A stretch of 64,000 bases of DNA from Caldithrix abyssi (GTDB lineage Bacteria; Calditrichota; Calditrichia; Calditrichales; Calditrichaceae): positions 1 to 64,000 of the forward strand of contig DRQG01000015.1 in NCBI GenBank assembly GCA_011369465.1. Direction: 5' to 3'. The translations under genes and the position numbers were made by a program. Below are positions 37,712 through 50,497 of this stretch, one piece after another. Below the pieces are notes generated by a model. The model was not told the DNA's origin. It was given only the letters and a program-made list of their open reading frames with translations, and did no database searches. The stretch's first letter is position 1, and each line of letters begins with the position of its first letter.

Positions 37712-40700
37712 TCAGCGCACAAGCAGCATTTTTTTGACCCGTAAAAAGTTGTCCGCCTTCAATTCGTAAAAATAAACGCCGCTGGACAGACCTTCGGCTT
37801 CGAACTCCACTTTATAATGCCCGGCCTGCTGACGGGTATTTACCAACTCTTTTATCAACTGACCTAAAACATTATAAACCCGCAGCCGCACCACACCGGC
37901 CCGGCTTAAATCATAAGCAATTATCGTGGATGGATTGAAAGGATTGGGATAATTGGCGTATAGTTCTGTTTTTACAGGTAAATGGCCTTTCGCAACTTCA
38001 ATGGCCGTTTGGCTTTTCCATTCATAGGCACCCATATCTATCCGGTCATTAATAACCCGCTGGTTGCCTAAAATATCCTGCGCGATAAATGTTCCGATTT
38101 CGCTGGTGTCCGGTGTGCCCGCGTTGATGCAGGGAGAGTTTTCCCCGGGTTGATAAGGCTCTTGACCGCTCAATGCAAAAAGCGGATCCGCATTAATATT
38201 GTTTTCATAATTCAAATTGTCCGGAGTACCGACAAATTGTGCGCTGTCTCCTTCGACGTCCGAATAAATAAATGAATTTTCATTACCGGCCTTGTAAAAA
38301 TAAACCTGATGAGCGCTGCTGTCGGCACGGTTATTCCATAAGATGGAGTTAATAACAGAAAAATTGGAACTAAAGGTAATATACAATGCGCCTCCATAAA
38401 AGCCGGCATGATTATCGGCTAAGGTACTGTTCAATACTTCTGCCTGAGAATAGGTACCGGAAAGCCCGGCGCCGTAATCGGCCGAATTATCGGCCAAGAC
38501 CCCGTTAATCAACTTAAGATAGGATTCGGACAAATAAAACACTCCGCCGTTTTTTCTTGCCTGGTTTCCATAAAAATAGGTGTTGGCCGATTCCACCGTG
38601 GCTTTATTACGGCAAAAGACCGCGCCTCCGAAATCGGCCTCATTATTTTTAAAAACGTTATTGGCTATAACAAGCTGCGCAGCGTCCGCATAAAGCGCAC
38701 CGCCGTGCAAGGCCCGGTTATCGTAAAAGCGGTTATGCTCAAAAACCGCGCCGTTTATATTCCGGCAGTATAACGCTCCGCCCATATAACTGTCATTATG
38801 AATAAACAACGAATGGCTGATCCGTACTTTGTTGGAATCCTCGAAGGAAAGCGTCCCGTTTAGAGTATCGCCAAGGCTGCGCGTGCGGGCATATTCAAAA
38901 CGGCAAAAAGAAAAAACGGATGTGTCTTCGGCAGACGCGCCGGCAGCGAAATGAATACCATGCCATCCTGTACTCGTATCGGCAGCCGTAAAACGTATCG
39001 TGTCTTCTTCCGCGCCCTGCGCCCTAATTCCTCCGTAAACGGTTATGGCATAAGGGCCGGTAAAAACAACCCGCACCCCCGGTTCAATGGTTAAAGTAAC
39101 GCCCTGACCGATATATAAATCACAGCCGATTTCCATGGTTTGCCCGGCGCTCCAGGTGGTATCCGAAGTGATGGCGCATTCCCAAACATGTACCGTTACC
39201 GGCCGGCTGTATAAAGTTAAATCGGGCAGACTGTCGTTGCTCATTGTGCATGTGTAAACTCCGGTGTCTTCGTCAGAAAGATCGGGTATCGTCAAAACGC
39301 TGTCGTCCGGCGCATTTAAGACTACGCCATCCTTTTCCCATTGGTAGTGGGTAAATTCACCGCCCACATGCATAACCAGCCTTAATGTGTCTCCGGGTTG
39401 AAAAGCCAACGCTATTTTATTCCCAACAGAGTCCTGGTCGGAATATTTAAATGTTGTTAAAGAAGTCGATTTAAGCTGCGGCTCCAAATCGGAAAACACC
39501 AGTTGGTTTTCATAAACATATAAGCGCTGTAACGAGGGAAGTCCGGACAGATCGGGCAGAGAAGAAAACCTGTTGCCGTACAGTGCGATATTTTTAAGAG
39601 AGGATAGTCTTTTAATCGTATCGGGAACGGCTCCCGAAAAGTGATTTTTATATAGGTTTAAATATTGTAATTGAGTCAATTTACCAAAGCTTTCCGGCAA
39701 AGTTCCTTCCAGTTCATTTTCTGCGAGGCTGATCGTTGTCAGCGAGGAAAGATTGCCTAAGGTTTCGGGTATCGTTCCGGTAAGCTGATTTTTGTATAAA
39801 TTGGCTATTCTCAACTGGGAAAGGTTGCCCAGGCTTTCTGGGATTTCACCGTTGAGATTATTATCGCCGAGATTCAAGCTTTCCAAAGCGGCCATATCTC
39901 CCAGACTATCGGGAATGAATCCACCGATATCATTATAGGATAAATTTAACGTTTCCAAATTATCCATTCGTCCTATGCTCTCAGGAATGGTACCGGCAAG
40001 TTTGTTGTGTGAAGCATCAAAGAGAACCAGGTTTTTTAAATTGCCTATATTCGACGGGATATTACCGGTTAAGTCATTATTTCCCAAATGCAGCTGGGTC
40101 AGGGAGGTCAGGTTAACCAGGCTTGATGGTATGCTGCCGCTTAAATTGTTATCATAGAGCTGCAAAGACTCCAGTTTCGGGAGATTGCCCAATTCGGGAG
40201 GTATCTCCCCGCTGAGTTCATTGCTGAACAATTTCACAGTAACCAGTTCTTTTAAACTATCCAGTCCCCTGGGAATCGCACCGGAAATATCCGTTGAATG
40301 AATGATTAGTTCAGTCAGGTTGGTCAAGCCAGACAGGCTTTGCGGTAAAGAACCGTTTAAATGACACGAATAAAAATACAAGGTTTTGAGCTCTTTTAAA
40401 TTACCAATTTCTTCGGGAATCGGGCCGGTCAACGTGGAACTTTGCCCGATTTTTAGCCAGGTCAGCGCCGTAAGGTCGCCGAGTTGTCCCGGCAGCTTTC
40501 CGTTAAGGTTATTGTTTATTAAACTCAACTCCGTAACACGGCCGCTTTTAACGGTAACTCCGTACCAATCGGAAACCTTTGAACTCAAATCCCAGGTATG
40601 CGTCCAGTTGGCTCCGTCGGTACTGTCATAAATTGCCACCAAAGCCAGAGAATCGCTTTCCAGCACCTGTCCGTTCAGGTTAAAGTTAAATAAAAACAGC

Positions 40701-40732
40701 ATCGGGATGATTACACCAATCCAAACTTTCAT
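37712..40732 (-). CDS. secreted LRR / Ig-like / beta-helix surface protein with sorting domain
   Basis: 1006 residues. Signal peptide (MKVWIGVIIPMLFLFNFNLNG); about 15 plant-type leucine-rich repeats (about 60-410) of the form LxxLxLxxNxLxGxIPxxLGNL; an Ig-like domain (about 430-520, with DEDTGVYTCTMSN); and a right-handed parallel beta-helix (about 540-880, repeated GGALY/GGAVF turns). The C-terminus is a type A sorting domain (NYPNPFNPSTIIAYDL to the end). Each part is a binding or scaffold fold rather than an enzyme, so a large cell-surface adhesin or polysaccharide-binding protein is likely. It stands alone with its own terminator and is divergent from the lamin-tail gene. Confidence 0.88.
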   Translation of the reverse strand: MKVWIGVIIPMLFLFNFNLNGQVLESDSLALVAIYDSTDGANWTHTWDLSSKVSDWYGVTVKSGRVTELSLINNNLNGKLPGQLGDLTALTWLKIGQSSTLTGPIPEEIGNLKELKTLYFYSCHLNGSLPQSLSGLTNLTELIIHSTDISGAIPRGLDSLKELVTVKLFSNELSGEIPPELGNLPKLESLQLYDNNLSGSIPSSLVNLTSLTQLHLGNNDLTGNIPSNIGNLKNLVLFDASHNKLAGTIPESIGRMDNLETLNLSYNDIGGFIPDSLGDMAALESLNLGDNNLNGEIPESLGNLSQLRIANLYKNQLTGTIPETLGNLSSLTTISLAENELEGTLPESFGKLTQLQYLNLYKNHFSGAVPDTIKRLSSLKNIALYGNRFSSLPDLSGLPSLQRLYVYENQLVFSDLEPQLKSTSLTTFKYSDQDSVGNKIALAFQPGDTLRLVMHVGGEFTHYQWEKDGVVLNAPDDSVLTIPDLSDEDTGVYTCTMSNDSLPDLTLYSRPVTVHVWECAITSDTTWSAGQTMEIGCDLYIGQGVTLTIEPGVRVVFTGPYAITVYGGIRAQGAEEDTIRFTAADTSTGWHGIHFAAGASAEDTSVFSFCRFEYARTRSLGDTLNGTLSFEDSNKVRISHSLFIHNDSYMGGALYCRNINGAVFEHNRFYDNRALHGGALYADAAQLVIANNVFKNNEADFGGAVFCRNKATVESANTYFYGNQARKNGGVFYLSESYLKLINGVLADNSADYGAGLSGTYSQAEVLNSTLADNHAGFYGGALYITFSSNFSVINSILWNNRADSSAHQVYFYKAGNENSFIYSDVEGDSAQFVGTPDNLNYENNINADPLFALSGQEPYQPGENSPCINAGTPDTSEIGTFIAQDILGNQRVINDRIDMGAYEWKSQTAIEVAKGHLPVKTELYANYPNPFNPSTIIAYDLSRAGVVRLRVYNVLGQLIKELVNTRQQAGHYKVEFEAEGLSSGVYFYELKADNFLRVKKMLLVR

Positions 40733-40948: not shown

Positions 40949-43900
40949 ATGAAGCAGCTTTTTGTTCTTTTTTTATTACCCGTACTTCTTCTCGCCCAGG
41001 ATCATTTGCTTATAAGCGAAGTAATGATCCCTCCGGACAGTGAAGCCGACATTGCTTTTATAGAGATATATAATCCAACCGGTCAAACCGTTGCTCTGGA
41101 TGACTACTATCTTTCCAATTACAACACCTATTATCAAATTGTGCAAAACCAGTTTTCTCAGGAAGCGATTCATTTTTTAGGCCGCTTCCCTCAAACCGCA
41201 ATAAAAGCCGGTCAAACCATAGTGGTTGCGCTATACGGTCAATCCTTTGCCGGGCGTTTTGGCAAACAAGCCGATTTTGAAATCGTTTCTACGGATGACG
41301 CCATCCCGGATATGACCTCTCTTTATCTGGGCGCCAGCCCAAAACTGGAATTCACCCGCGGTATGGTCATTCTGTTTAAATGGAACGGCCAGAGCGACCT
41401 GGTACAGGATGTCGATTATTTCCCATGGGGGCTGGCTCCCTTCCATACCTATTGGATGGACAAAACCGGTGTATCCATTGACGGCCCTGACGGAGACGGC
41501 GACGTTTCTGCCTATTTGGATGACCTGCCCACCGCACAGCAGAAAGCTCGGCAGGCGCCTACAGGCGATCTAAGCCCTCAACGTAAAGGCATCGCCGAAG
41601 TTTCCGAAGTAAGCAGCAACGGCAACGGCCTGAGCGGCCATAACGAAGCCAGCGAAGACTGGCAAACCAGCTTCGCAGACGCGACCCCCACACCGGGCAG
41701 CTTTAGCGAAACGGCCGGAGACGGCAGCGGAACAGCAACTATAAATCCCGACACGGTGGAGACAAACAGCAGCCACAATTTTGAAATCACTTTAACCGGC
41801 AGCACGGAGTATACACTGACATCCGTACAAATTGTGGTTCCTGCTGCGTTCAACTGGAGCCGCAGCGAAAGCGATGTGGTTTTGCAGGGAACCGGATTGA
41901 GCGGTGCCGCATTATCCATAAATGGAGATACCATCACTATCAGCAATGCCGCTGTAACCAATACGGATATTGCTGTTTGCAACATAAATAGTGTAACGGT
42001 TCCGGCGGATGAAGGTCTGTATTCCTTCCGGATAAAAACGGCCGTAACCGGCGGCACCTTGACGCCCATCGGTATTTTCCCTGCCGTTGTGGTTAAAAAG
42101 AAACTGACCATTCGCGAAATTCTTGAAAACTTTAGCCAATATAACGGACAACTGGTTACCCTGGAGGCTGTAGTGGCCATCGGCGCCGGTATTACCCGCA
42201 CCGACCGCACCGACGCCTATATCCAGGATGAATCCGGCCGGGGGATCAATTTAAGCGACTTCGGTACCGATTTCCCTGACCTGGTACGTGGTAACCGCAT
42301 CCGCATAACCGGCCAGGTTTCCGAATACCGGGGCGACCCGCAAATACAAAATTTTACAACCGAAGTGATTTCCACCGGAAACGAAGTGCCCGGCGTTCAA
42401 TTGATGAGCATCAGCCAGGCCTCCGATCTTTCTTTAAAAGGAACGATGATTGAAACGGCCGGCATCATCCGCAGTATTTTCACCTTTACGGACGGCAATT
42501 CCAACATCACCATCGACGACGGCACAGCGTCCATCGTTATCCGCGTTTGGCAAACAACCGGAATTGACGTAACCGTGTTCAGTGAGGGCGATACCATCGG
42601 TGTGCGCGCGGTAATCGACGAGTTTTCTTCCGCAGCGCAGCTGCTGGTGGGTTATCAGGATGATCTCTTCCCGACCCGGCTCAAGGAGTTTGCCGCCGGA
42701 AGCGGTTCGGTTTCCGTAACCCCGGACAGCGTTGGGAAAGACGAAGATGTTACCCTGGAGTTTGCCTTTACGGCAACCAGCGAAGACACCGTACAGCGCA
42801 TCGCTATCGACATTCCTTCCTACTGGGGCTGGTCGGAAAATCCGGCGGATATAAACCTGGGGGGCGATCTGGTTTCCGCAGATGTTTCCGTTACCGGCAA
42901 TCAGATCGTTATAAGTCAGGCCTATCTCGTTAAACCGGCCCAGGGCAGCATTATCGTTGGCGGTCTGCACACACCCGCAGCGGATACGGCTTCCGTTTTT
43001 CGTATCTGGTCCGGAGAAGCGGCCGGGCCTCTCAGCGAAATAAAAATAAGCCCGGTTCTTCTTGTGGGTACGGGCACCGGCGTCCCAACCATCCCTATTG
43101 CCGAAGCGCGAAAGCTGGATCCGGGTACCCGGGTTTCGTTGCGCGGTACGGTGGTCATCGGTTCCGGTATTTTGCGTTCCGGACAGACCAGCGCCTATAT
43201 GCAGGACGGTTCCGGGCGCGGCATCAATATATTTGACCGTCGCGAAGACGCCGATATCAAGCGTGGAAATTATATCGTCATCAGCGGCCTTCTGACCGAA
43301 TATGTAAGCGGTAATAACGACCGGGTGCTGGAACTTACCGGCTATACGGTACGGGTTTTGAAGACCAACAGCACGCTGCCGAAACCGTTGGAATTTTCGC
43401 CATTCGAAGCCCAGAAACTGGACCCTGCGGAATACGAGGGCACCTGGATTCAGGTGGAAGGCCGTATCGCCAATGTTACAAGCGATGATTATGGTTCCAA
43501 TTTGTATGTAAGCGACAATGCCGATCAGGTTACCGTACGCATTAACCGCGACACCGGTCTCAAAACCGACGGTTTCCGCAAGGGCGATTACATCAGAGTG
43601 CGCGGTGTGGTGGGTACCTATCGCGGCGATATTCAGATTTTGCCGGGCTACCAGGAAGATTTGGAAGTGTTCGACCCTTCTTTAAAACCCGGCTATTACG
43701 AAGTAAAACTAAACCTGCCTCCGCGGCCATTTGTTCCGGAAAAAGGCGAAAAACTGCCCATCGATTATACGGTCAAAAATAGCAATTCGCACATCACCAT
43801 ACGCATTTTTGATTTGGGCGGCCGTCTGGTAACCACCTTGTTTGACGGCGCGCCGTATGATGTGGAAATAAACTGGAACGGCCGCGACGCGCTGAACGAA

Positions 43901-44008
43901 CTGGTACCGATCGGAACGTATATCTGCCATCTGGAAGCTGTGGATAACGATACCGGCGAACGGCAAACCAAAACGGCTCCTATTGTGGTAGGGACGGTTT
44001 TGAGATAA
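40949..44008 (+). CDS. secreted lamin-tail protein with four OB-folds and FlgD-like C-terminus
   Basis: 1019 residues. Signal peptide (MKQLFVLFLLPVLLLAQ); lamin-tail domain (about 18-150, LLISEVMIPPDSEADIAFIE); then two copies of a three-part module: Ig-like strand domain (about 257-380 and 583-705) followed by two OB-folds (about 385-470 and 487-574; 714-808 and 815-908). The OB-folds share lines such as SAYMQDGSGRGINIF and DAYIQDESGRGINLS. The end (about 934-1019) is a FlgD-type Ig domain (IRIFDLGGRLVTTLFDG) used as a C-terminal cap by exported proteins. Lamin-tail plus OB-folds are typical of extracellular nucleases, but no nuclease domain is present, so nucleic-acid binding without cleavage is suggested. 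Confidence 0.82.
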   Translation: MKQLFVLFLLPVLLLAQDHLLISEVMIPPDSEADIAFIEIYNPTGQTVALDDYYLSNYNTYYQIVQNQFSQEAIHFLGRFPQTAIKAGQTIVVALYGQSFAGRFGKQADFEIVSTDDAIPDMTSLYLGASPKLEFTRGMVILFKWNGQSDLVQDVDYFPWGLAPFHTYWMDKTGVSIDGPDGDGDVSAYLDDLPTAQQKARQAPTGDLSPQRKGIAEVSEVSSNGNGLSGHNEASEDWQTSFADATPTPGSFSETAGDGSGTATINPDTVETNSSHNFEITLTGSTEYTLTSVQIVVPAAFNWSRSESDVVLQGTGLSGAALSINGDTITISNAAVTNTDIAVCNINSVTVPADEGLYSFRIKTAVTGGTLTPIGIFPAVVVKKKLTIREILENFSQYNGQLVTLEAVVAIGAGITRTDRTDAYIQDESGRGINLSDFGTDFPDLVRGNRIRITGQVSEYRGDPQIQNFTTEVISTGNEVPGVQLMSISQASDLSLKGTMIETAGIIRSIFTFTDGNSNITIDDGTASIVIRVWQTTGIDVTVFSEGDTIGVRAVIDEFSSAAQLLVGYQDDLFPTRLKEFAAGSGSVSVTPDSVGKDEDVTLEFAFTATSEDTVQRIAIDIPSYWGWSENPADINLGGDLVSADVSVTGNQIVISQAYLVKPAQGSIIVGGLHTPAADTASVFRIWSGEAAGPLSEIKISPVLLVGTGTGVPTIPIAEARKLDPGTRVSLRGTVVIGSGILRSGQTSAYMQDGSGRGINIFDRREDADIKRGNYIVISGLLTEYVSGNNDRVLELTGYTVRVLKTNSTLPKPLEFSPFEAQKLDPAEYEGTWIQVEGRIANVTSDDYGSNLYVSDNADQVTVRINRDTGLKTDGFRKGDYIRVRGVVGTYRGDIQILPGYQEDLEVFDPSLKPGYYEVKLNLPPRPFVPEKGEKLPIDYTVKNSNSHITIRIFDLGGRLVTTLFDGAPYDVEINWNGRDALNELVPIGTYICHLEAVDNDTGERQTKTAPIVVGTVLR

Positions 44009-44120
44009 AACGTTTTTTACGCTTCTCACCCGATGCGGAGGTATGGGGCAGAACGGCTAAAAGTTTATTTTAATTCCGGAAATATGAGGTAAATATTCTC
44101 TTTTCTAAATGAGGCAAACA

Positions 44121-44996
44121 ATGAAGTTTATTTACGGTTTTATGATCCTTCTGTTTTTAAATTCGCAAATACTTGCCGGCGCCTTTGACGACCGCTACCC
44201 CTCGGCCCGGGCAACGGCAATGAGTAACGCTTTTGTTGCCGTAGCCAATGACGTTTGGGCGGCTTATTATAATCCTGCCGGGCTGGCGCAGTTAAACGGT
44301 TATTCGGCGGGTTTTACTTACCAGCGCCTTTTTAATCTGAGTTTCTTTAAAAATGTATTTTTTGCTGCGGCAATGCCCTTACCCGGTTCTTTTGGCGGGC
44401 TGTCCGTTTCCTTCGAGAATTTTGGAGTTGAATACGAGGGCGAATGGATGTCCAGCGAATACACGGCTAAAATTTCGCACGGTTTTTATTTATTGAATGA
44501 TATCCATTCTTCCCTGTCCGTCGGTTATAACGTTAACTATTTTAATTGGCAGCTGGGTCAATCGGTGGATGGCTTGCAGCTTGGATCGGCCGGGACTATC
44601 GGGTTTGATGTGGGGCTACAGGCGTCTATTTATCATCGTACCTATTTGGGGGTATTTGTTTACAACCTGAACGCGCCCTCCTTTGGAAAAGACCTGCAAA
44701 GAGAACTGCCCCAGCGTATCGTGGCCGGAGCCGCTTACCGGCCGATCAGCGGATTGGTAACTACGCTGGTTATGGAAAAAACCATCGGTTCGGATATTAT
44801 GGTGGAAGGCGGCTTTGAATATTATCCTGTGGATTTCTTTTCTTTGCGTATGGGCGCCAGCACCATGCCCAATCGTATTTCCGTTGGTTTCGGTTTGAAC
44901 TATGCCGGCTTTGTGATCGATTATGCCTTCCGCAACCATCCTGTGTTGGCCGAAACCCATCAATTTGGTATCAGTTATAATTTTGGGAAAAACTAA
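44121..44996 (+). CDS. PorV/PorQ-like outer-membrane protein
   Basis: 291 residues. A signal peptide (FMILLFLNSQILAG) precedes the conserved ARATAMSNAFVAVANDVWAAYYNPAGLAQL pattern of PorV/UPF0164-type barrels, then about ten amphipathic strands to the terminal FGISYNFGKN. In type IX systems PorV-like proteins ferry cargo after outer-membrane passage; this short version resembles PorQ-like family members. The ATG at 44121 is preferred because GAGG lies 6 bp upstream and the alternative ATG at 44109 is inside that site. It heads a tightly packed four-gene run to 50497. Confidence 0.75.
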   Translation: MKFIYGFMILLFLNSQILAGAFDDRYPSARATAMSNAFVAVANDVWAAYYNPAGLAQLNGYSAGFTYQRLFNLSFFKNVFFAAAMPLPGSFGGLSVSFENFGVEYEGEWMSSEYTAKISHGFYLLNDIHSSLSVGYNVNYFNWQLGQSVDGLQLGSAGTIGFDVGLQASIYHRTYLGVFVYNLNAPSFGKDLQRELPQRIVAGAAYRPISGLVTTLVMEKTIGSDIMVEGGFEYYPVDFFSLRMGASTMPNRISVGFGLNYAGFVIDYAFRNHPVLAETHQFGISYNFGKN

Positions 44997-45003
44997 TTCG
45001 TAT

Positions 45004-47532
45004 ATGAAAATTTTTAAACCTTTCTGGATTCTTATTTTTATTTTTTCGATGCTATCCGCCGGGCAATATACGAGCGATCATCAGCTGGACATCAACAACG
45101 CTTCGTATAAAGAGGTGTTGCAGCTGCCGGTTCCGGAATCCCTGGCTAAAGCCATTTATGAGCGGGTTACCTTCCGCGGTCCCTTAAAAAGTATCTATGA
45201 CCTGCGGACCGTTGAGGGTATGGATCAGAAAACCTTCTTAAAGATCAAACCGCTTATTCGGGTGGAGCCGTTTCGCCAACTGACTAGCGCTCAGGAAAAA
45301 ATGGAGCGGATTTACTTTCGTCTTGACCGCTGGAGCTCCGACGACGGTGTGAACGACGCTTTTGTCGATTTGTGGATTGAAAAAGCGCTGGAACCGATCA
45401 ACGTGAACAATGCCCGGTATGATGAACTGGTTAACCTGCAGAATGTTTCACCCATCGACGCCGTGGCCATTTTAAAACATCGCAAAAATGTGCACTGGAT
45501 TCGAGATGAACGTGATCTGCGCCGGGTACCCGGACTGACCAATTATGCCTATCGTTCGGCGCGCTATTTTCTGGACTACAGTGATGTGGAAAGCGATGCC
45601 CGCTGGCACGGCTATGTTTCCATGCGCGTGGACAACACGCCGTTTATGGCTACCGAAGGGGAGCAGTCGCAGGAAGCCGGCCTTTCCGCCATCCAAAGCG
45701 ATTTAAGCAGCGGCTTTAATCTTTTGCCCAACACCTATGTTCGCGGTCGTTTTACTTACCGCGAAAGATATAAATTCGGCTTTACCTATTACCGCACTTT
45801 GAATGAACCCGGCGAAACCTATTCCATCGGCGGTATCCATTTGCCGGATATGAAATTTTTCTTCGGGATGGAAAACCAGCAACTGGGTCCGTTCAATCTT
45901 CGTCGTCTGTATGTGGGTAACTACAGCGTGACGATGGGCCAGGGTGTGGTTATGGAAACAACCGATTATTTCACGCCCAGAAAATCCGGTTACGGTTTTC
46001 GCAAACGCTTTCAGGGCATCGCCGGAGACATATCGCGTACCCGGGAATATACCCTGAAAGGCGCCGCGGCCGAGCTGGATTACAAAGATTTGAGCCTGCT
46101 GGGCTTTGTTTCCTTCGACGACCGCGACGCTATCCTGAACCGCGGCTTGTACGGAGACAGCCTGACGCGCAGCTTTAACCAGCTTATCGTTCTCGACCAG
46201 CGTTTTAAGTTTGCTCTGGGCGATTCTTTGCGCAGCCCCGAATATGATAACTTGAGCTGGCTGAACACCGTTAAAGAACTCACCTACGGCGGGCGGATTC
46301 AGTACACGTTTTTACCCGGCACTTTTTTGGGTATGAGTTTTTACGAAAGCGCTTACGACCGTCCCATCGATCCCGATCCCTACCAGATCGTCGGGCTGGA
46401 TTATCGCGGCGATTCGCACTGGGATATTCGTCAGGTAACCACGGACAGCGAAATTAAACAGGCGTACGGAGGCCCGGTATCCAGCGGAAGCAATCCTTTC
46501 TGGAGTGCGGCCAAATCATTCCGGAGGGTCATTGGCATAGATTTTCAGACCGTAATTAAAAATATCGCCATTCAGGGCGAACTGGGCGAATTGGATAAAG
46601 GCGCCGGCGGTCTGTTCTTTGGGAATAACCCCAAAGCTTTCGTAATTTCCGCCTTCACCCAGTTTTCATCTTTTAATATCCTACTCTTATACCGCAACTA
46701 CGATCTGGCCTTCGATAACCCTTATCAGCGGTCTTTTTCCAATTACCGGCGTTATAAGGGAACGATGTACGAAGATTATTATTATCTGCAATCGGTGCTG
46801 TACGGGCAACTCTATACCAACAATCCTCAACCCCAGGCAGAAGAGGGATTGTATATCGACAGCTACTATCAGCTTTCCCGCAAACTGGTTACCCGGCTGC
46901 AATATGATAACTGGCAGCGCAAGGCCGACGCCGCCAAAATGTATCGTCTGGTCGGAACCATAGACTATCGTCCGGTTTATCCGTTAAGCATTCAATTACG
47001 CAATAAATGGCAATCCCGCGAAGAGACCAACAGCCTGAGCACCACCCGTTTCTATAAAAATTACGAGTTTCGGGGCCGCGTTCGTATGCGCCTGTCCGGC
47101 TATGATAGTTTCAGCCTGTTGTACAGTGTTTCCAAGCTGATCAATCATCCCCGGCCCAGGGTCTTCCAGGATATTGTATTGGACGGTGAGGCTATCTCGG
47201 CCAATTATATCCACAATTTTAACCGCTATTTCAAAATAAGCGGGATGCTAACCTATTATAACGGTTTCCTGTGGAATTTTGAAGATACCCAGTTTGTGGT
47301 TATGGATAGTAAAAAAGGCGCTCTTCGCTACTGGATTTCTTTCTACAGCCGGCTCAGTCCGAATTTGACCTTGCGTCTTAAATATACGGGTGAACACCAT
47401 AAACCTATTTCCGGTTCCTGGTTTTCGGCAAACAATTTAACCCGGAATGATAACCCGGAAAAACGGTTTGAAACCGACTGGCTACGGCAAAGTTCCAATC
47501 TGTTTTATTTTGAGATAAACTATAATTTCTAA
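45004..47532 (+). CDS. ComEA-like helix-hairpin-helix protein fused to an outer-membrane beta-barrel
   Basis: 842 residues. Signal peptide (to about 20); two helix-hairpin-helix regions, LDINNASYKEVLQLP (from about 28) and EPINVNNARYDELVNL (from about 130), each followed by a second hairpin (VEGMDQKTFLKIKPLI; VPGLTNYAYRSARYF). These are the motifs ComEA uses to bind DNA without sequence preference. From about 190 to the end the sequence alternates polar and aromatic residues as a beta-barrel and finishes in Phe (YFEINYNF). A periplasmic DNA-binding plug on an outer-membrane channel is the natural reading. The frame extends to 44923 inside the previous gene, but the signal peptide fixes the start at 45004. 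Confidence 0.78.
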   Translation: MKIFKPFWILIFIFSMLSAGQYTSDHQLDINNASYKEVLQLPVPESLAKAIYERVTFRGPLKSIYDLRTVEGMDQKTFLKIKPLIRVEPFRQLTSAQEKMERIYFRLDRWSSDDGVNDAFVDLWIEKALEPINVNNARYDELVNLQNVSPIDAVAILKHRKNVHWIRDERDLRRVPGLTNYAYRSARYFLDYSDVESDARWHGYVSMRVDNTPFMATEGEQSQEAGLSAIQSDLSSGFNLLPNTYVRGRFTYRERYKFGFTYYRTLNEPGETYSIGGIHLPDMKFFFGMENQQLGPFNLRRLYVGNYSVTMGQGVVMETTDYFTPRKSGYGFRKRFQGIAGDISRTREYTLKGAAAELDYKDLSLLGFVSFDDRDAILNRGLYGDSLTRSFNQLIVLDQRFKFALGDSLRSPEYDNLSWLNTVKELTYGGRIQYTFLPGTFLGMSFYESAYDRPIDPDPYQIVGLDYRGDSHWDIRQVTTDSEIKQAYGGPVSSGSNPFWSAAKSFRRVIGIDFQTVIKNIAIQGELGELDKGAGGLFFGNNPKAFVISAFTQFSSFNILLLYRNYDLAFDNPYQRSFSNYRRYKGTMYEDYYYLQSVLYGQLYTNNPQPQAEEGLYIDSYYQLSRKLVTRLQYDNWQRKADAAKMYRLVGTIDYRPVYPLSIQLRNKWQSREETNSLSTTRFYKNYEFRGRVRMRLSGYDSFSLLYSVSKLINHPRPRVFQDIVLDGEAISANYIHNFNRYFKISGMLTYYNGFLWNFEDTQFVVMDSKKGALRYWISFYSRLSPNLTLRLKYTGEHHKPISGSWFSANNLTRNDNPEKRFETDWLRQSSNLFYFEINYNF

Positions 47533-47546
47533 TATTCGGAGTTTCA

Positions 47547-48875
47547 ATGAAGTACAAAAAGCGAATACTTTTTCCCCTTATATTTTTCTCTTTTTCAGCG
47601 CTGCCGGGTCAACAGCTTGACTTAAATTTCAGTTATATGCTCTATGGCCGGGAAGTTCCGGCATCGAGCGCTCGGGCGCTGGCTTTAGGAGGCAGCGGCA
47701 TTGCCGGCGGAGAGGCAGTGGACGCTTCCTTTTTGAATCCGGCCCTTCTCGGCAACGGTAAAGCGGGTATCGGATTAAACGCCGGTTTTTTTCTTGATCA
47801 CGTAGAAGAAGACCGGGCCTATCCCTATTACGATTCTTTTGAGGGTTTTAACGGCTACGGTTCCTATTCGTTTAACAAAAATTGGTATCCCAACGGATAC
47901 GGCCTAATCTCGTACACGGTAGATCTGCCTGCGGTAAATAAACTGTCTCTCAGCAGCGGTTTTTTGCCATTTATCGATTTCACGTATCATTACCGCGAAG
48001 AAGTGGGCAATCCCAATCGCACCCCCGACTATAAAAAGGACAAAATACTTGGCTACAACAGCATCGAATCTACAGGCCGGCTGAACAGAATTCCCCTTGC
48101 CATTGCCGTTAAGCCTTTGGATAATTTAAGCGTCGGTTTGCAGGTAGATGTTCTCAGCGGTTCCATAGACTCTCTAGCCTCTGTGTCACCGCGGGAGGAG
48201 ATGTTTCCGCCCGAAGAAATAGAAGCGATTAAAAGCAATGAAAAAACCACAAAGACCTTAAACAACACACCGCTTGTGTTTTCCCTCGGATTGCATTATC
48301 GTTTTGGCGATCGTCTTTCGGCCGGATTCTTAATACGCGGTCCGTATGAAATACAGTTTCTGAATCGATATGAAAATACGCAAGCGCCCGATAAAAACCG
48401 GCAGGAAATCCGAACGCTTAGCTATCCGATGCGGCTTGGCCTGGGGCTTGATTACCGTTTTACCAATATCCTTTCCGGTCGTCTTTCGTTTGATTTTGTG
48501 TATGATTTCTGGAGTCAATTTAAGGATGATTTACGGCCCGGTCTGGAATTTAACGATACTTACTCTCTGCGTACCGGCGTGGAACACCTGTTTTTCGATG
48601 AGATACCTTTACGCTTCGGGTTCCGGTATAATTCTATGCGGGAAAGCCGTAATTTCAGCGAATCACTTATCACCTTCGGAACCAGCTTCCGTTTTTTGGG
48701 CGTCACCGTCGATCTTTCCGCAGGGATTTCCAGCCAGGTTTACTATCAATACGATCTTTTTGACGATTCTATCTACGGGTTGTTCAGCCGGGGCAGCGAG
48801 CTGGATAAAGTTACGCTGTCAACCATATACGGACGGCTGAGTATTCAATATGTTTTCTTTTCACTGGGTGAATAA
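47547..48875 (+). CDS. PorV/FadL-like outer-membrane barrel protein
   Basis: 442 residues with a signal peptide (FPLIFFSFSALPGQ) and the pattern SSARALALGGSGIAGGEAVDASFLNPALLG, the same hatch-like N-terminus as the PorV-like proteins at 32.4 and 44.1 kb, but with a larger barrel. The body contains extended strands and long loops (PRTPDYKKDKILGY-like charged loops) and ends RLSIQYVFFSLGE. It lies 14 bp after the HhH-barrel gene and 14 bp before the phosphoesterase gene, so all three should be cotranscribed. The cargo or substrate is not known. Confidence 0.72.
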   Translation: MKYKKRILFPLIFFSFSALPGQQLDLNFSYMLYGREVPASSARALALGGSGIAGGEAVDASFLNPALLGNGKAGIGLNAGFFLDHVEEDRAYPYYDSFEGFNGYGSYSFNKNWYPNGYGLISYTVDLPAVNKLSLSSGFLPFIDFTYHYREEVGNPNRTPDYKKDKILGYNSIESTGRLNRIPLAIAVKPLDNLSVGLQVDVLSGSIDSLASVSPREEMFPPEEIEAIKSNEKTTKTLNNTPLVFSLGLHYRFGDRLSAGFLIRGPYEIQFLNRYENTQAPDKNRQEIRTLSYPMRLGLGLDYRFTNILSGRLSFDFVYDFWSQFKDDLRPGLEFNDTYSLRTGVEHLFFDEIPLRFGFRYNSMRESRNFSESLITFGTSFRFLGVTVDLSAGISSQVYYQYDLFDDSIYGLFSRGSELDKVTLSTIYGRLSIQYVFFSLGE

Positions 48876-48889
48876 CGGATGGTAATCGA

Positions 48890-50497
48890 ATGAAGCCAAT
48901 ATTTACAATTTTTTCCTTTTTCCTTTGCGTTTCCTTTCTCAGCGCACAGAATACGATAAAGCTGCATATTTTTTATACCAATGATTTACGCGGCGGCATC
49001 GGCTGGCAAAAAGCCACCTTTATGAATCCCGATTTTCCGCCCGAGCTGGGGGGCGGCGCCTCCACGGCCGCCATTATTAATAAAATTCGCCGGCAGGCGC
49101 GCCTCAACGGTGAAGAAGTGTTGCTGCTGGACGGCGGGGATTTTATTTTCGGGCCAACACCCCTGGGAGAGGATTCCAAAGGCCGGGCGATTGTCGAATA
49201 TATGAACCACGTGGGATACGATGCCGCCGTCCCCGGTATTAATGATTTCAATCTTGGCCGGGAAGACCTAACCGCTCTTGGCCGGCAAGCGCATTTTCCC
49301 TTATTGGCGGCAAATGTTATCGACAGCGCATCACTAAAAACCGCCGAACCGTTTACGCCCTATACGATTATCGAGAAAAATGGCCTGAGAATCGGTTTGT
49401 TCGGTATCGTTTCCAAAGCCGCAGAACAAAACGAAGATCCTCAACGTATCCGTGGGCTGCGTTTTCTTAGCGAGGTACAAGCAGCGCAAAAAACCGTAGA
49501 ACAGCTTAAAGAACAAAATGCAGATATCATAATTGCCTTGGCTCACCTCGGTTTGCCCTACGATTCCGAAGAAGGGTATGATGTCCTGCGCGAACAGGAA
49601 GCACAGAATATTTTTAAAGATTCCTATGTCAATACGATGGAGCTGGCCCGTAGCGTTGCCGGGATCGATTTAATCGTGTCCGGGCATATCCCGCGCGGTT
49701 ATCAGGAACCGTGGGAGGATCCGGTAAACCACACCATTTGTGTTCAAAACTATGCCGGCGGCGGAAACCTGGGTTTAATTACCCTGAATATTGATAAAAG
49801 CACTAAAACCGTTACCGGATATGACCTGCCTTCGGTGGACGGCAGTCTTTTGCTGCTCTCTTTGGACGAATTCTGGCCCGAAGAATCCACCGCCAATCTG
49901 ATTCGTTCTTTGGAAGAGCAATACGAACCCGGTTTTGATGAAATGATCGGAGAGACGGTACAATCGCTTAACCGTAATCTTCAGGGAGAATCGCGGTTAT
50001 CCAACTTAATGTGCGATGCCATGCTCGAGTCAACCGGAGCCGATTTCGCCTTCAATAATTATGTGAGTATGCGCGCCGACATTCCTATCGGGCCCATAAC
50101 CCCTCGCGATTTAAGCAGCGTTTTTCCCTTTGGCAATGAGATTGTTGTCATTAAAATGGAAGGAAAACTGTTGTACGATCTGATGGAAGGAAGTATTGCC
50201 GGTTACAATAACGGGTTTGCTATCGGCGGTGGTCGGATCATTTCAAATAAAGGTCTGCCCGATGGAAAACGTATCCTTTCCTTTAAAATCGGCGGCAAAC
50301 CTCTTGATCCGCATCAAACCTACCGGGTGGCCACCAGCGCTTATTTAGCCAAAGGAAATTATGGCCTGACCAAACTGGCCTTTTTACCGGATGATGTGTT
50401 TGAATATACGGGAATTAAGGTAAGAAAAGCGGTGGAAGAATTTGTCAGGAAACATTCGCCGTTAAATATTGCGGTGGAGGGCCGCTGGCCAAAGTGA
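48890..50497 (+). CDS. UshA-like 5'-nucleotidase/metallophosphoesterase with altered active site
   Basis: 535 residues: signal peptide (to about 20), metallophosphoesterase domain (about 22-330) and 5'-nucleotidase C-terminal domain (about 350-520, ESRLSNLMCDAML, VFPFGNEIVVI). Several metal or catalytic positions differ from UshA: TNDLRGG replaces TNDxHG (Arg34 for His), and GINDFN (116-121) replaces the catalytic GNHEFD. LLLDGGD (Asp84), IALAHLG and SGHIP are retained in part. It may be weakly active, use other residues, or serve as a nucleotide-binding protein. It is the last gene of the envelope operon and is followed by a terminator. Confidence 0.8.
   Translation: MKPIFTIFSFFLCVSFLSAQNTIKLHIFYTNDLRGGIGWQKATFMNPDFPPELGGGASTAAIINKIRRQARLNGEEVLLLDGGDFIFGPTPLGEDSKGRAIVEYMNHVGYDAAVPGINDFNLGREDLTALGRQAHFPLLAANVIDSASLKTAEPFTPYTIIEKNGLRIGLFGIVSKAAEQNEDPQRIRGLRFLSEVQAAQKTVEQLKEQNADIIIALAHLGLPYDSEEGYDVLREQEAQNIFKDSYVNTMELARSVAGIDLIVSGHIPRGYQEPWEDPVNHTICVQNYAGGGNLGLITLNIDKSTKTVTGYDLPSVDGSLLLLSLDEFWPEESTANLIRSLEEQYEPGFDEMIGETVQSLNRNLQGESRLSNLMCDAMLESTGADFAFNNYVSMRADIPIGPITPRDLSSVFPFGNEIVVIKMEGKLLYDLMEGSIAGYNNGFAIGGGRIISNKGLPDGKRILSFKIGGKPLDPHQTYRVATSAYLAKGNYGLTKLAFLPDDVFEYTGIKVRKAVEEFVRKHSPLNIAVEGRWPK

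Follow-up and report, generated by a model that had tools for sequence, protein, structure and literature searches.

A run of five genes on the forward strand of Caldithrix abyssi contig DRQG01000015.1 raises the question of whether a secreted OB-fold protein, three outer-membrane proteins and a UshA-like protein form a route for extracellular DNA, as the original prediction had proposed, or a surface complex of another kind. All five open reading frames were recovered in the window (the whole stretch of DNA analysed, 64,000 nucleotides) and their domain content matched that described earlier (Table 1). The tight spacing of the last four genes, with intergenic distances of 7, 14 and 14 bp in the run of PorV-like, HhH-barrel, barrel 2 and UshA-like genes, was confirmed with the HhH-barrel start placed at 45004. 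The mechanical open reading frame begins at 44923, while the methionine of the signal peptide lies at 45004 and leaves the 7-bp gap to the PorV-like gene.

Table 1. Positions and predicted features of the five-gene locus in the window
Feature	Position	Strand	Description
LTD-OB protein	40949..44008	+	1019 aa; secreted; LTD, four OB-fold, two Ig-like and FlgD_ig-like C-terminal domains; conserved tail APIVVGTVL
LTD-OB C-terminal domain (last 110 aa)	43676..44005	+	Best conserved part of the protein
PorV/PorQ-family outer-membrane protein	44109..44996	+	Distinct from canonical T9SS PorV (contig C65)
HhH-barrel	45004..47532	+	Tandem HhH (residues ~27-92 and ~130-192), then outer-membrane barrel of ~24 strands
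Barrel 2, FadL/BamG-like outer-membrane barrel	47547..48875	+	Profile and solved-chain matches
UshA-like protein (metallophosphatase and 5'-nucleotidase C)	48890..50497	+	Eroded metal/catalytic site; pseudo-enzyme candidate

Beside the cluster, on the opposite strand (37712-40732), is a gene for a surface protein that combines LRR, Ig and choice-of-anchor Q parts and carries a T9SS tail of type A. In several relatives a gene for a DUF5689 protein takes this position and runs in the direction of the cluster.

Conservation across Calditrichota

The order LTD-OB, PorV-like, HhH-barrel and barrel 2 was intact in all 20 regions compared (20 genomes, six Calditrichota families), which bears out the expected conservation of the neighbourhood within the phylum. 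The expectation that all five genes stay together held for this four-gene core and failed for the UshA-like gene, which joins the cluster only in families f1-f3 and is missing from f4-f6, where the core persists. The flanking two-component and MazG genes downstream (RR/NtrC/HK/MazG) were kept only within the window's own family, which indicates that general synteny alone does not account for the cohesion of the four-gene core. The four-gene cluster is a real unit with an order beyond chance. Flanks varied by lineage: f2 has Mo-cofactor genes, f4 has a gene for a TrkA-type channel together with one resembling a photoproduct lyase, and genes for HSP90, DsbD and UDP-glucose dehydrogenase occurred in relatives, so that the context gives no shared pathway.

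The HhH-barrel was present in 34 of the 40 phylum genomes, one of 35 matches having been discounted as only a short ComEA-like stretch (G022), and identity between families was near 50%. The whole cluster was not found in G013 and G022, two fairly complete genomes that keep SprA and ComEC and in which an assembly gap is possible. A PorV-like match in G022 was considered as a cluster member and rejected, being another paralogue without the cluster. A scan of genome contigs with a single protein query matched only Calditrichota and MAGs, and no relatives were returned from the viral contigs and plasmids searched. Such constancy over an entire phylum suggests that the cluster has an important function in the envelope, with none assigned in the literature found, and the LTD-OB protein and the three barrel proteins most likely build one cell-surface complex.

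The LTD-OB protein and type IX secretion

Pfam matches in the LTD-OB protein were to LTD, OB-fold (PF01336) and FlgD_ig. Its original description as a secreted protein with four OB-folds and no nuclease domain was upheld by the domain search, an AlphaFold2 model and the comparison of family members, a nuclease domain being found neither in the window protein nor in any of 17 aligned members. This sets it apart from the extracellular LTD/OB nucleases (ExeM/NucH), and the ExeM model hit only a short OB stretch at 24 bits compared with a cut-off of 300. Membership of the LTD-OB protein itself in DUF5689 was also rejected, as one of 17 members matched at E 0.005 and scores at two LTD-OB loci were about 20 bits.

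AlphaFold2 models of the LTD-OB protein and the HhH-barrel were built from alignments of 15-20 sequences. The LTD-OB model (mean pLDDT 76.7) contained the LTD, two Ig-like modules, a C-terminal sandwich and four OB-type strand groups arranged in two pairs (residues ~384-475, 500-567, 728-805 and 833-898). Foldseek ranked tandem-OB HIN domains with dsDNA first (E 2.5e-10, TM by target 0.25-0.47), and the tandem OB pairs as modelled resemble the HIN dsDNA-binding domains in fold. The solved tandem OB proteins in the PDB are mostly nucleic-acid binders and the ranking of the HIN match is therefore biased. The OB domains were mostly acidic, with median net charges of -4.5, -8.5, -2 and -8 for OB1 to OB4, and OB3 of the window protein itself had a charge of +3.

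The core of the LTD-OB C-terminal domain recurs in about 25 further proteins encoded by the genome while the last ~12-20 residues do not, and the tail APIVVGTVL or a near variant occurred in all 15 aligned relatives. Only FlgD_ig scored above its cut-off in the protein, Pfam Por_Secre_tail and CHU_C falling below theirs, and among the NCBIfam T9SS CTD models neither TIGR04183 nor the type-B model matched the C-terminus at E<=0.1. As the C-terminus matches no curated CTD model, T9SS export of the LTD-OB protein is something we infer from sequence.

The SprA translocon of the genome is located at C19:20893-22209, and SprA was detected in 37 of 40 Calditrichota genomes, including all 23 of high quality. 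This distribution contrasts with a 2025 paper in which the T9SS is described as exclusive to Bacteroidota (PMC12618676). The cluster PorV-like protein scored 69.9 bits for PorV_fam, below the 90-bit cut-off, and 17.8 bits for the canonical-PorV model NF033710. It is one of about 20 PorV-family paralogues in the genome, in which another gene encodes the canonical PorV (C65:45036-46043, 268.6 bits). In Flavobacterium johnsoniae, type-B substrate genes commonly have their own PorP/SprF shuttle gene next downstream (PMC12618676). The Calditrichota cluster resembles these pairs in that a multidomain secreted protein with a C-terminal sandwich domain is encoded directly upstream of a shuttle-family gene in a genome with SprA; it differs in having a PorV-family shuttle, an FlgD_ig CTD rather than TIGR04183/TIGR04131, and two more barrel genes. 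With this cluster, the pairing of a type IX substrate with a shuttle of its own would reach beyond Bacteroidota.

HhH-barrel, barrel 2 and the UshA-like protein

Two HHH_3 stretches were identified in the HhH-barrel (1.2e-18), which places its N-terminal part in the HHH_3 fold, and AlphaFold2 on 20 orthologues (mean pLDDT 68.6, pTM 0.69) gave two helical HhH domains followed by about 24 long strands. Foldseek matches were to other large barrels and were weak (TM by query ~0.2-0.3); ushers and TonB-dependent receptors ranked near the top. The most conserved segment was the loop at 567-612 (85% mean identity), where the predicted fold is not confident. The gene is single-copy, no paralogue of the barrel was detected in the genome, and the PDB search returned profile resemblance of the HhH tandem to human EEPD1 and ComEA chains and no SprA sequence match to the HhH-barrel.

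The proposal that these ComEA-like hairpins bind DNA was weakened. The Gly-h-Gly DNA-binding signature was absent from all four hairpins in each of the 20 orthologues, an outcome named beforehand as telling against DNA binding, and the net charge of the HhH domain scatters about zero compared with +6 for the genome's own ComEA. HHH_3 by profile is shared with ComEA, while the HhH-barrel differs in its missing signature, near-neutral charge, tandem arrangement and fusion to a barrel. Such degenerate near-neutral hairpins suit a docking role better than contact with DNA, and the HhH domains are most likely periplasmic protein-docking modules. A second gene joining HhH and beta-barrel parts was found elsewhere in the same genome (C100:5023-6966, locus L142) beside MlaE/MlaF-type ABC transporter genes. 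Only its HhH part, also without Gly-h-Gly, is common with the window HhH-barrel and its barrel sequence is unrelated.

Barrel 2 matched solved FadL-type chains and the BamG profile at 66 bits (63 in the genome comparison), far below the cut-off of 250. The best BamG match of the genome is C15:76224-77264 (178 bits), about 12 kb past the end of the window, and this gene likely encodes its BamG. Barrel 2 shares the FadL-superfamily barrel with the Bacteroidota BAM subunit BamG (PMC12611786) but differs in its sub-cut-off score and in the better candidate elsewhere.

The UshA-like protein belongs to the UshA/5'-nucleotidase family by a two-domain profile and PDB match, yet in the window protein four of the eight metal/catalytic residues remain, the other four being changed as H43R, N116I, H117N and Q254P (E. 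coli numbering). Since the reading frame is still full length, with 45-57% identity, it would probably encode a retained non-catalytic protein here, a pseudo-enzyme candidate. The suggested role in nucleotide handling is weakened by the loss of half of these residues in the window and the absence of the gene from f4-f6.

Interpretation of the cluster

The best reading, which we hold tentatively, is a T9SS-linked surface complex present throughout Calditrichota. The LTD-OB protein would be exported by Sec and then cross the outer membrane as T9SS cargo via SprA, its C-terminal domain being taken up by the neighbouring PorV-like protein, which would serve as a dedicated shuttle. Once outside, the LTD-OB protein would remain bound to a surface assembly made up of the FadL/BamG-like barrel and the HhH-barrel, the latter spanning the membrane with its predicted ~24 strands and exposing its HhH domains to the periplasm. 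The OB/LTD ectodomain may bind a polymer or a small ligand outside the cell, nucleic acid being one possibility. The constant four-gene order, the placement of a substrate gene directly upstream of a PorV-family gene in a type-B/PorP-SprF-like layout (PMC12618676) and the near-universal SprA argue for this surface complex, as do the strong conservation of the LTD-OB C-terminal domain with its widespread core and private tail, the existence of a different, canonical PorV among the many paralogues, hairpins suited to docking and a single-copy HhH-barrel with a barrel unlike any other in the genome. Against it stand the C-terminus without a curated CTD match, the known type-B cognate shuttles, which are PorP/SprF and not PorV_fam, and the two genomes that have SprA and apparently no cluster, where the assembly may be incomplete. 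A dedicated export complex, in which the HhH-barrel would itself be a SprA-like translocon for LTD-OB cargo and the PorV-like protein the shuttle, could draw on the constant association of a large barrel, a PorV-family protein and a CTD-bearing cargo, and on usher translocation pores being among the best structural matches; it is improbable in view of the low TM values and modest model confidence, the lack of a SprA sequence match in the PDB search and the SprA already encoded in the genome. An accessory role in outer-membrane protein assembly appears similarly improbable. Here barrel 2 would be BamG-like, the LTD-OB protein a BamH-like canopy and the HhH-barrel a specialised client or partner, consistent with the BamG and FadL-type matches of barrel 2 and with the extension of BamG and BamH across FCB phyla (PMC12611786), but the much better BamG candidate outside the window, the absence of BamA or a POTRA domain from the cluster in the domain search and the lack of a lipobox Cys in the LTD-OB protein, unlike the lipoprotein BamH, count against it. 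The cluster offers concrete genes for testing large-molecule passage across the outer membrane in FCB bacteria.

Capture and uptake of DNA or other nucleic acid at the outer membrane, with the OB/LTD part binding DNA, the HhH-barrel passing it and ComEA and ComEC completing the route, is an unlikely alternative. As originally proposed it was partly supported, gaining from the gene set and its conservation and losing from the HhH hairpin sequences, the mostly acidic character of the OB domains and the erosion of the UshA-like site. The HIN resemblance favours it, with the bias in PDB content noted above, as does the ComEA-type HhH fold. A stand-alone ComEA and ComEC are encoded elsewhere in the window genome and ComEC is present in 37 of 40 phylum genomes, so an inner uptake route exists and is unlinked to the cluster locus; no com gene was found in the cluster or recurrently beside it in the fetched regions, and ComEC persists in G013 and G022, where the cluster was not found. 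The best argument for DNA uptake is indirect and comes from DUF5689 proteins with a T9SS-type tail, encoded directly upstream of the LTD-OB gene in several Calditrichota, the window genome not among them. In Riemerella anatipestifer a DUF5689 protein (RA0C_RS04920), the neighbouring outer-membrane barrel (RA0C_RS04915) and an HhH protein (RA0C_RS02645) are each essential for natural transformation (PMC8459023), so that the original statement that no comparable system has been described was not quite right. The two systems are alike in these three components and differ in that the Riemerella HhH protein is separate and its barrel carries a carboxypeptidase-regulatory domain, while in Calditrichota HhH is fused to the barrel; in addition, DUF5689 is on the transformation surface protein itself in Riemerella and on a neighbour gene of some relatives in Calditrichota. 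A Calditrichota-wide DNA import machine, combining an own-shuttled tandem-OB DNA binder with an HhH-bearing ~24-strand barrel pore as functional counterpart of the Riemerella transformation proteins, is similarly unlikely.

A UshA-centred system for scavenging nucleotides or phosphate is very improbable. The gene follows barrel 2 after 14 bp and all eight active-site residues are kept in six full-length relatives (f2, L062 and L060), but the gene is absent where the core persists in f4-f6 and the site is eroded in the window's own lineage. Other members of f1 (Calditrichaceae) have lost different sets of residues, and the UshA-like proteins of this family form a pseudo-enzyme series with lineage-specific residue loss alongside sister families in which the site is intact.
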